NCBI GenBank assembly: GCA_016432585.1
Contig: CP066696.1
Span: 124,001 to 188,000, forward strand
Reading direction: 5' to 3'
DNA length: 64,000 bases
DNA from: Candidatus Saccharibacteria bacterium
Lineage (GTDB): Bacteria; Patescibacteriota; Saccharimonadia; Saccharimonadales; Saccharimonadaceae
Part shown: one piece after another, positions 52,692 to 55,746 of the stretch
Layout: every line of letters begins with the position of its first letter
Position numbering within the stretch: position 1 is the first letter of the stretch
Translations under genes and position numbers: made by a program
The notes under the pieces: generated by a model
What the model saw: only the letters and a program-made list of their open reading frames with translations
Told to the model about the DNA's origin: nothing
Database searches by the model: none

Positions 52692-53822
52692 TTACAGGTA
52701 TCCAGCGGATCCTTTGTTGATGCTCTTATAGACTTGCTCGTAAATAGCGTTAGCCTCATCGTTTGTAATGCTGCGTTCAAGGTGACGGAGTGTAATTCGC
52801 ACCAGGACGTTCTTTTGGTTTGGTGCGCAGCCTAGGCGCTCACGAGCGATAAGTGGCAGGCTTTCGTAGTGCGTCTCGCCGAGAATTTCAACTTCTTCAA
52901 GGGTGTCGCTTTTGTCACCTAAGGCTTCGCGAATATCTGCGCTAATATCTTCTTCTACGTATGTATCTGGAACGCTATACGACATATCGCGCTTTATGGC
53001 CGGCTGGCTAGACACTTCTTGGTAGAGTGCGAGGTTTTGCATTTGAGTTGCAATTTTTGGATTTGTGGAGCGTAAATAGCGAATATCGGGGATATTTTTG
53101 AGCGTCATAACAAGCCGGTCAAGTCCCATGCCGAGCGCCCAGCCAGAATAGGCTGCTGGGTCAAGGCCTGCCGCCTCTAATATGGCATCGTTAATAAGCC
53201 CGCATTCTAAAATCTCGATATCACGATCGCCATTGACGGCATTTACTTCGATACCTTCTTTTGTGTACGGGTGCGGAGAGTTTTCGATTCGTAGGTTCCA
53301 GCCGGGTGCTGCAGTTGCGGCAACGCCACGCACAACTTCAAGAAGATCATCTTTTCTAACTGTGGGGTGGTTTGAGTTTTTAACGACCCGCCACATCTCG
53401 AGCATATGGACTTCGCTGACATGTTTTTTGTCGGACACGTCGCGTCGGTAGGCCAGACCGGGCAGTAGAATGACGACATCGGTCCAATCGCTACGCGTTG
53501 AAAGCTCGCGCAAAATGCCCGGTAAGTGCGCGCTAGTGTGGGTACGAAGTACATGATCGGTGTCGACATAATGCGTGTAGGTAGACGAGCGGCTGATGTT
53601 ATCTTTGCTAATTCGCAAATTATCGTAATTATCGCGCACGGTCACGATAGGATCTTTGCGATAAACGGTGACGTCACTAGTCGGGTGAGCTGCGCGCATA
53701 TAGGCGACGATATTTTCGTACACCATTTTTATGGCGTGTGGCTGTGGTGATTGCGTAAGGTCGGCGATAGCAAGATAGTTGCTTAGAGCCTTTTTACTAA
53801 TAGGCTTAATATACATTTTCAT
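52692..53822 (-). CDS. single-chain phenylalanyl-tRNA synthetase-like protein
   Basis: This 376-residue class II synthetase has motif 2 (RTHTSAHLPGILREL), motif 3 (SGWALGMGLDRLVMTLKNIPDIRYLRS), and a C-terminal FDX-ACB anticodon-binding domain (VLVRITLRHLERSITNDEANAI). Core plus FDX-ACB in one chain is the plan of mitochondrial PheRS, not of bacterial PheST. The Phe-rich leader peptide upstream supports Phe specificity. Whether it is the cell's main PheRS cannot be told here. AGAGGAAC precedes the ATG. Confidence 0.82.
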   Translation of the reverse strand: MKMYIKPISKKALSNYLAIADLTQSPQPHAIKMVYENIVAYMRAAHPTSDVTVYRKDPIVTVRDNYDNLRISKDNISRSSTYTHYVDTDHVLRTHTSAHLPGILRELSTRSDWTDVVILLPGLAYRRDVSDKKHVSEVHMLEMWRVVKNSNHPTVRKDDLLEVVRGVAATAAPGWNLRIENSPHPYTKEGIEVNAVNGDRDIEILECGLINDAILEAAGLDPAAYSGWALGMGLDRLVMTLKNIPDIRYLRSTNPKIATQMQNLALYQEVSSQPAIKRDMSYSVPDTYVEEDISADIREALGDKSDTLEEVEILGETHYESLPLIARERLGCAPNQKNVLVRITLRHLERSITNDEANAIYEQVYKSINKGSAGYL

Positions 53823-53839
53823 AATAAAGTTCCTCTTCT

Positions 53840-53974
53840 TTGGAGTATAGTTGGCAAATAGAAATGGCGTGTGAAAATATTGCTGCTAGGCAGCAAAAAA
53901 GCCAAAGAAGAAAGAGTTAGGTGATACTAAACGAATACTTCGCATAACCGAAGCGGGCGAGTACTCGTTTGTAT
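53840..53974 (-). promoter_or_regulatory. attenuator-like structures in the leader
   Basis: Minus strand: AAACGAGTACTCGC pairs with GCGAAGTATTCGTTT (one mismatch, about 53967-53925) inside the leader frame. TTGCTGC, CTA, GCAGCAA (about 53895-53879) then overlaps the Ala-Ala-stop codons and is followed by TATTTT. The second hairpin is a weak terminator; a ribosome stalled on the Phe codons would cover it. Confidence 0.5.
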
Positions 53975-53987
53975 TGACACTGTTCAT
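53886..53987 (-). CDS. Phe-rich leader peptide of the synthetase gene
   Basis: A 33-codon frame beginning MNSVNTNEYS and ending SFFFGFFAA, with five Phe in six codons just before the stop. It starts seven bases after a -10 box and so is leaderless. Its place before a Phe-tRNA synthetase mirrors the pheM leader of Escherichia coli pheST. A short hairpin overlaps its last codons. Confidence 0.8.
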   Translation of the reverse strand: MNSVNTNEYSPASVMRSIRLVSPNSFFFGFFAA

Positions 53988-53994
53988 AAAATAT

Positions 53995-54023
53995 ATAGTA
54001 ATACGTTTATGGTTGGGTGTCAA
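53995..54023 (-). promoter_or_regulatory. promoter of the leader peptide and synthetase gene
   Basis: Minus-strand TTGACA (54023-54018), exactly 17 bases, TACTAT (54000-53995), seven bases, ATG 53987. Confidence 0.88.
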
Positions 54024-54026
54024 GTA

Positions 54027-54054
54027 AACAAAAAAAGACCATGCGCGGTCTTTT
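54027..54054 (-). terminator. terminator of tRNA-Pro
   Basis: Minus strand AAAAGACC, six-base loop, GGTCTTTT with T7; ends just before the synthetase promoter. Confidence 0.9.
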
Positions 54055-54066
54055 GAAATAATTTCA

Positions 54067-54142
54067 TGGTCGGGGTGAAAGGGCTCAAACCTTCGACCTC
54101 TCGGTCCCAAACCGAGCGCGCTATCAACTGCGCCACACCCCG
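54067..54142 (-). tRNA. tRNA-Pro (anticodon TGG)
   Basis: Acceptor CGGGGTG with CACCCCG, D arm GGCGCAGTTGATAGCGC, anticodon loop TTTGGGA, T loop GTTTGAG (T arm AAGGTTTGAGCCCTT), discriminator A and encoded CCA. Minus-strand TATAAT at 54166-54161 is its -10. Confidence 0.96.
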
Positions 54143-54213
54143 ATAGGTGGTACTTTAGAGATTATACCCCATATGGGTGGGTTTTTCCAGTGGTATTTTT
54201 GGTACAAAAAAGA

Positions 54214-54219
54214 TACGCT
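54214..54219 (+). promoter_or_regulatory. possible -10 box of the glycosyltransferase gene
   Basis: TACGCT, six bases, ATG 54226; a weak hexamer but the same spacing as elsewhere. Confidence 0.4.
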
Positions 54220-54225
54220 TAATAT

Positions 54226-55746
54226 ATGATACGAAAACTCATCGATGCTATTTTTCACCGACAAACTGTTACGTGGCCAGAACGGCATTTTATGCCAATC
54301 GTTATAGCCGGCGTTGTGCTAACTATGGCAATAAGCCTTGCTATTGGACTTAACCAAAGTGTTTGGTTCGACGAAGCGTACTCTATTATGCTTGCCAAAC
54401 AGTCGACAGCCGAGCTGCTGCACCTTACGGCTATCGACACGCACCCGCCACTGTACTATTTACTTCTTCAGGGGTGGGCGGCGATATTTGGCTGGAGCGA
54501 GGTGGCGCTTCGTAGTCTGAGTGTTCTGGCTATGGGCGGCGCGGCTTTGGTAGGGACGCTGCTAGTGAAGAAGCTATTTGGTGTTCGCGTGGCGCTTATC
54601 GCATTGCCGTTTATTGTGTTCGCGCCATTTTTGCTACGCTACGGGTTCGAGATTCGCATGTACGCACTCGCTTCGTTTATTGGTGTTGCAGCAACCTACA
54701 CACTAGTAAGTGCACTGCAGGCGCGTGATAAGCAGCGTCAGTGGAAACTGTATGCGCTGTATGCACTTTTGGTGGCAATTGGCGTTTACACGCTGTACTA
54801 TACAGTACTGCTATGGCTTGCACATTTGGCGTGGCTGGTGTGGACGGCAAAAAAAGACAAGCAGCCGATTTTGCGTGCGCCGTGGTTTGTGGCGCTGGGT
54901 GGCAGTGTGGCGTTCTTTTTGCCTTGGCTACCAACCTTTATTTCGCAGGTAGGCAATGGCGCTTTGGCGGCAATTTCGCAGCCACTTACCATCGATAATC
55001 TTATTGGTATCGTATCGTTTATGTTCGTGTATCAACCTACATGGCAGTTAACGGCGCTGATGTCGCTGGTGATAGTGTTTGTTATTACGGCGCTGATTGT
55101 ACTGTCTATTCGCGCATGGAAAAATGCCGATAAAAAGCAGCATTCGTACTTACTACTTTTGGCGCTGTATATTTTGGGGCCGATAGCGATACTAACGCTC
55201 GTGTCGTTGGTGAAGCCTATGTATGTGGAGCGCTACCTGTCGCATGTGATGATTGCTGGCAGTATGCTAGTGGGTGTTGTTGTGGCGCTGGCGTTGGCGA
55301 AAAAACCAACAAAGCGAATAATTGCAATGAGTATTGGCTTGTTTGCAGTAATGCTGATTGGTGTGGTGCAGCTGGCGAACGTGGGTAATTACAATTTTCA
55401 ACGCCTGCAGATTCCTGCGGTGAAAGAAATCGCCAGTTCAATTAAAGACTGTGGCAAAGACACAACTGTTTTTGCGGCGGACCCCTACACAGCAATAGAA
55501 CTTGCGTATTACTTGCCAGATTGTGAGATTCGTTTTTACAGTGAGACACTTGAACTAAAAGGTGGCTACGCACCGCTTTCAAACAATACACTTCATGTAG
55601 CCAACCCAGAATCTGAACTGGCGAACAGCAAAAAGCTAGTATACGTTTACTACGATGAGCAAAAGCTGAAAATGCCAGCGACGCTTACCGAAGTCTCGAA
55701 CCTTTCTATTGGTCCGCTGCAAGCGGCAACCTTTAGCGCGGAATAA
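54226..55746 (+). CDS. membrane glycosyltransferase (GT39/ArnT-like, GT-C fold)
   Basis: A 506-residue polytopic protein with the GT-C acidic motif WFDEAYSIML in the first loop, DTHPPLYYLLLQGW, about ten further helices, and a C-terminal extracytoplasmic domain. It should transfer a sugar from a polyprenyl phosphate to an extracellular acceptor. The 14-base overlap at the end is with the converging acyltransferase gene. Confidence 0.85.
   Translation: MIRKLIDAIFHRQTVTWPERHFMPIVIAGVVLTMAISLAIGLNQSVWFDEAYSIMLAKQSTAELLHLTAIDTHPPLYYLLLQGWAAIFGWSEVALRSLSVLAMGGAALVGTLLVKKLFGVRVALIALPFIVFAPFLLRYGFEIRMYALASFIGVAATYTLVSALQARDKQRQWKLYALYALLVAIGVYTLYYTVLLWLAHLAWLVWTAKKDKQPILRAPWFVALGGSVAFFLPWLPTFISQVGNGALAAISQPLTIDNLIGIVSFMFVYQPTWQLTALMSLVIVFVITALIVLSIRAWKNADKKQHSYLLLLALYILGPIAILTLVSLVKPMYVERYLSHVMIAGSMLVGVVVALALAKKPTKRIIAMSIGLFAVMLIGVVQLANVGNYNFQRLQIPAVKEIASSIKDCGKDTTVFAADPYTAIELAYYLPDCEIRFYSETLELKGGYAPLSNNTLHVANPESELANSKKLVYVYYDEQKLKMPATLTEVSNLSIGPLQAATFSAE

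Follow-up and report, generated by a model that had tools for sequence, protein, structure and literature searches.

In the 64,000-nucleotide window of a Candidatus Saccharibacteria genome analyzed here, a short reading frame rich in phenylalanine codons lies between a promoter and the gene for a single-chain protein related to phenylalanyl-tRNA synthetase (PheRS). The arrangement raises the question of whether the frame encodes a leader peptide through which the supply of charged tRNA-Phe controls the gene, and, if it does, at which level the control is exerted. From the sequence, its conservation in related genomes and the predicted folding of the RNA, we consider that the gene, here called SrmL after its protein family, is under Phe-tRNA-dependent leader-peptide control, whatever the level, with a probability of roughly 0.8.

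Organization of the SrmL locus

All features of the locus lie on the minus strand. The promoter (53995–54023) has a -35 box TTGACA at 54023–54018, a 17-base spacer and a -10 box TACTAT at 54000–53995, and the ATG at 53987, seven bases past the -10 box, opens a frame of 33 codons (MNSVNTNEYSPASVMRSIRLVSPNSFFFGFFAA*, 53886–53987) with homologues at five related loci (L004, L033, L034, L040 and L035). Its product ends in SFFFGFFAA*. The preliminary description had placed promoter and frame exactly so, and had called the leader peptide leaderless, with which the promoter spacing is consistent: we infer from this spacing that the mRNA begins on the leader ATG or directly beside it, and in SrmL relatives the ATG is also found 3–7 bases behind a -10-like box.

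The leader ORF contains a structured 5′ RNA domain (53921–53980), recognized by shuffle z-scores, and the putative Phe control codons TTC TTC TTT GGC TTT TTT, which are codons 26–31 (53895–53912). A strand of this Phe run, CTCTTTCTTCTTTGG (53901–53916), is complementary to the Shine-Dalgarno region of SrmL, CCAAAGAAGAGGAAC (53829–53843). The leader stop codon sits within a 7-bp hairpin, TTGCTGC-CTA-GCAGCAA (53880–53896), followed by TATTTTCA. This hairpin, previously described as short and with a T-rich tail, is evident in the sequence and recurs in relatives, yet it encloses the stop codon and its tail is poor, with 5 T in 12 bases. Between hairpin and Shine-Dalgarno region runs a G-poor spacer (53844–53880; 2–5% G in six loci), and SrmL itself (52692–53822, 376 amino acids) follows the leader stop after a gap of 63 bases. 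The upstream neighbor is a tRNA-Pro gene (TGG; 54067–54142), which by reading of the sequence also stands upstream of SrmL in L004; a terminator-like hairpin (54033–54054) lies behind it, between tRNA-Pro and the SrmL promoter.

A second PheRS-like enzyme

The protein scores 413.5 bits against the NCBIfam model NF051887, ‘PheS-related mystery ligase SrmL’ (cutoff 300), and 154.1 bits against the mitochondrial PheRS model TIGR00469, below its cutoff of 258.35. It joins a PheRS class II core (PF01409) and an FDX-ACB anticodon-binding domain (PF03147) in one chain, and its AlphaFold model (pLDDT 84) has human mitochondrial PheRS as best fold match over the whole chain. With monomeric mitochondrial PheRS (3CMQ; PMC3275996) it thus shares the catalytic core and anticodon-binding domain in a single chain (TM 0.78), but it differs from that enzyme in having HPY for FPF and LECG for LGCG and in its sub-cutoff TIGR00469 score. 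The earlier assignment of the gene to Phe-tRNA synthetase therefore stands for a single-chain PheRS-like protein and not for the canonical PheRS: the product is a member of NF051887, and a canonical pheS and a full-length pheT are located elsewhere in the same genome. Because of this normal pheST, we regard SrmL as a second PheRS-like enzyme and not as the housekeeping PheRS. The tRNA complement of the genome includes one tRNA-Phe, and a genome-wide tRNA search for an odd tRNA that could be the partner of SrmL found ordinary tRNAs only.

SrmL proteins form a monophyletic family in the phylogenetic tree (support 100/100) with a patchy distribution: of 393 genomes sampled from the order, about 10 encode one. 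No further SrmL was found in the order of genome G447 or in the family of genome G175, and no phage-borne SrmL among the viral contigs searched. Two changes mark the substrate pocket. The FPF or FPY motif of PheRS is HPY in 12 of the 13 SrmL proteins and HSY in L034, and LGCG has become LECG. In Mycobacterium tuberculosis PheRS the phenylalanines of FPF touch the ring of the substrate, while the corresponding residues of the human cytosolic enzyme are Asn and Tyr (PMC12447630); since that enzyme departs from the motif as well, HPY is compatible with specificity of SrmL for Phe. SrmL is most likely a stress-induced second PheRS, with an altered pocket and with Phe as the presumed amino acid charged. 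The pocket, in which an invariant His and an invariant Glu take the places of the Phe and Gly of PheRS, could also be read differently, in that SrmL, switched on by its own leader when Phe-tRNA is short, might charge tRNA-Phe with a residue other than Phe, and Phe codons would then temporarily be read with the substitute; this we consider unlikely.

Single-chain enzymes of another kind were seen in about two dozen near-complete Patescibacteria genomes (L049–L076; for example G649, G599, G807 and G756), which have a single-chain PheRS with an FPY pocket and are without a full-length PheT. Many of these loci have a separate small gene alongside that matches PheT residues 40–150, the region of the tRNA-binding domain. 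The single chain seems to be the only PheRS of these genomes.

Phe-rich leaders in front of SrmL

We compared 13 distinct SrmL loci, including the one in the window. A Phe-rich short ORF starting 3–7 bases past a -10 box precedes SrmL in 11 of them, or in 12 if the weaker leader of L038 is counted in; the scan found no clear leader in L048, which has the most distant SrmL. A possible TTG-started mini-ORF, MATGNKIRTFCF, upstream of position 1447 in L048 is too weak to be taken as a leader. The same scan returned 6 hits among 29 canonical pheS loci, at scattered positions, and a chance-like 2 among 26 distant single-chain PheRS loci of other Patescibacteria. At the canonical pheST of the genome studied here, a leader ORF was looked for and none was found behind its plain promoter.

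Six loci (this locus, L004, L033, L034, L040 and L035) share one leader design, which we call type A. Their leaders are 31 or 33 codons long, with ATG position, frame and stop kept, and all six have the stop-codon hairpin and a U-rich tail. The preliminary description had proposed comparing relatives for the Phe run, and the run proves to be kept: FF-G-F/I-FAA* is retained in five of the six loci, and the sixth, L035, has scattered Phe codons. The N-terminal part of the peptide varies between type-A leaders while its RNA fold, the hairpin and the C-terminus stay. Over the first 22–25 codons a stable 5′ fold is present in all six loci although the peptide varies, with the shape of a three-way junction in four loci and of a long hairpin in this one. 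Dinucleotide shuffling gave z = -3.7 here and a Stouffer z of -6.3 over the six loci, and against synonymous recoding the Stouffer z was -4.5. These fold z-scores replaced column-based pair counting, since MAFFT put the 5′ stems of L035 in the wrong columns. As to what this domain does, our guess would be that it times the ribosome or the RNA polymerase.

Outside type A, the leaders belong to several non-homologous sets that stand before one monophyletic enzyme family. L044 and L045 have a different stem in the same layout as the type-A hairpin, and L036, L037, L038 and L046 have other peptides with true intrinsic terminators 20–50 bases past the stop. Phe codons recur in these unrelated peptides, as in MKTCSHNLFFNFILNPFRG and ..NSSTFFFAL. 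The enzyme of L046 nests among the type-A enzymes, which indicates that SrmL has changed from one leader design to another without losing the Phe codons. An extra ORF was observed between leader and SrmL in four loci (L036:2450-3001, L044:1092-1421, and small ones in L037 and L045); searches of the L036 and L044 ORFs against Pfam gave no family above its cutoff.

Such leaders are rare in the genome at large. A count over the complete genome (952,504 bases) gave 3775 short ORFs with a linked -10 box. Two of them have at least five Phe within seven residues, and the SrmL leader is the sole one of these with a 6/6 -35 box. Among the 145 intergenic candidates that are followed by a gene, likewise, no other is rich in Phe. 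With the threshold at three Phe or more in seven residues, 125 -10-linked ORFs are found in 952 kb on both strands, a genome-wide count that translates into a chance expectation of about 0.05 per locus of 800 bases.

Proposed control of SrmL translation

The pairing between the Phe run and the Shine-Dalgarno region suggests how such a leader might act. Transcription would begin at or beside the leader ATG, and a ribosome would load on the 5′ end. With ample Phe-tRNA it would pass the Phe run, stop inside the stop-codon hairpin and leave; the freed Phe-run RNA would then pair with the Shine-Dalgarno of SrmL and keep SrmL low, and the hairpin might add some termination. With Phe-tRNA short, the ribosome would wait on the Phe codons and cover the anti-Shine-Dalgarno strand, the Shine-Dalgarno would be open, and SrmL would be made and would restore the charging of tRNA-Phe. 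The sign of the response, SrmL rising when Phe-tRNA is short, is our expectation from this scheme: induction would have this sign because the anti-Shine-Dalgarno strand is exactly what a ribosome waiting at the first Phe codons would cover.

The helix between Phe run and Shine-Dalgarno is present in the minimum free energy fold of this locus, with a duplex energy of -15.3 kcal/mol that 2.9% of control genes equal. Across the six type-A loci the pairing beats 97–99% of control genes in three, reaches the 7–13% level in two and is absent in L035. Compared with synonymous recoding the pairing is unexceptional (0.20 here, 0.05–0.87 in the other loci), and complementarity between a polypyrimidine Phe run and a purine-rich Shine-Dalgarno is partly automatic. 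If Phe-tRNA control holds, we lean to a translational output at this locus, with about even odds, and give slightly lower odds to termination at the hairpin.

Alternative explanations

Transcription attenuation at this locus, in which the stop-codon hairpin would be an intrinsic terminator blocked by a ribosome at the later Phe codons, is the alternative that survives best, though it is rather doubtful. The six type-A loci all have a hairpin with a U-rich tail, as do L044 and L045, where the stem differs; clear intrinsic terminators stand behind the leader in L036, L037, L038 and L046; and hairpins with scores comparable to those of the type-A loci are found at 9% of gene ends versus 0.5% of coding windows. 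The terminator score itself speaks against this explanation, being -24 at this locus, and between -12 and -38 within type A, versus 4.5–7.2 in L044/L045 and 18–29 in L038/L046. So does the RNA folding with the ribosome footprint masked out, which we used as a switch test. When the ribosome is placed on the first two Phe codons the hairpin of this locus still forms (P = 0.98), and it is masked only by one that has reached the last Phe codon or the stop, so that the expected sign becomes less clear; the earlier proposal that a waiting ribosome covers the hairpin is thus right for the last Phe codon and wrong for the first two. In the near relative L046 the same test gave a terminator probability of 0.93 for the free RNA, which dropped to 0.00 when the ribosome occupied the Phe codons and was 0.96 when it stood at the stop, so that folding gives good support to L046 as a predicted textbook transcription attenuator. 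Attenuation of the pheST kind, which the preliminary description had proposed, therefore has good support from folding in the relative L046 and is no more than a candidate at the present locus, with its weak terminator. Seven SrmL genomes have no Rho above cutoff (best matches about 50 bits, cutoff 509), and tnaC-type Rho-dependent attenuation is accordingly out.

That FFGFFAA* acts as a peptide, either as an arrest sequence or as a general sensor of translation, and not through the supply of Phe-tRNA, we regard as quite unlikely. Four type-A loci conserve the motif residue for residue, and L040 comes close, but this C-terminus coincides with a constraint on the RNA, the hairpin lying in GCTGCCTAG, and Phe codons persist in the unrelated leaders mentioned above.

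Still less probable is a T-box or other tRNA- or metabolite-binding riboswitch with the leader ORF as an incidental feature. The structured 5′ domain common to the six loci would fit this idea; against it, no Rfam family besides tRNA is matched, the leader retains its start position, reading frame and stop despite the two lengths, and L046 and L038 have Phe codons without that structure. The T-box was looked for in 53500–54300 and rejected, with no Rfam match at E-values up to 5. Finally, a chance Phe-rich ORF behind a promoter, with no regulatory role, is scarcely credible: 125 such ORFs do exist genome-wide, but 11–12 of 13 SrmL loci have one where about 0.05 is expected for each, and hairpin, frame and 5′ structure are all conserved.

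Relation to known attenuators

In translational attenuation of the ermC type, a ribosome stalled on the leader peptide frees the Shine-Dalgarno of the target gene. The control proposed for SrmL differs from it in that the putative signal is Phe-tRNA and the control codons themselves are the anti-Shine-Dalgarno strand. Vecchione and Sello reportedly described, in 2010, an auxiliary antibiotic-resistant TrpRS of Streptomyces controlled by ribosome-mediated attenuation (cited in PMC4787780). That system is alike in that a second aminoacyl-tRNA synthetase gene is induced by way of a leader containing codons for the amino acid of the enzyme, and unlike in that SrmL concerns another amino acid and another phylum, and in that resistance to an inhibitor is a feature of the TrpRS. 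Attenuators in front of aminoacyl-tRNA synthetase genes include those of gamma-proteobacterial pheST and of Streptomyces trpS and leuS (PMC1262725). SrmL shares with gamma-proteobacterial pheST a leader peptide with Phe codons before a PheRS-type gene (PMC1262725); here, in contrast, the mRNA is apparently leaderless, the target is an accessory single chain, a strong terminator is absent and the genome’s own canonical pheST is without a leader. Our literature search, which covered few subscription papers or preprints, turned up no account of the regulation or substrate of SrmL, nor of leaders of this type in Saccharibacteria.

Leader-peptide control of SrmL would give a ‘mystery ligase’ family a testable function, as an enzyme wired to the supply of charged tRNA-Phe, and would extend this type of control of aminoacyl-tRNA synthetases to the Patescibacteria, in a genome lacking rho and with an apparently leaderless leader. 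It suggests that bacteria of this kind, very small and dependent on a host, maintain a second PheRS that can be induced, perhaps as a defense against starvation for amino acids or against PheRS inhibitors encountered there. With at least two attenuator designs, the SrmL family would also be a small natural series for the evolution of such switches. One further short frame in front of a synthetase gene was observed in the same genome, outside the window (G000:C1:916788-916839): the ORF MKTPCCLCTQFFTCKH, which looks leaderless and has four Cys, lies 20 bases before a gene for an 849-amino-acid class I aminoacyl-tRNA synthetase, which by reading of its start is probably ValRS; this four-Cys ORF may be due to chance.
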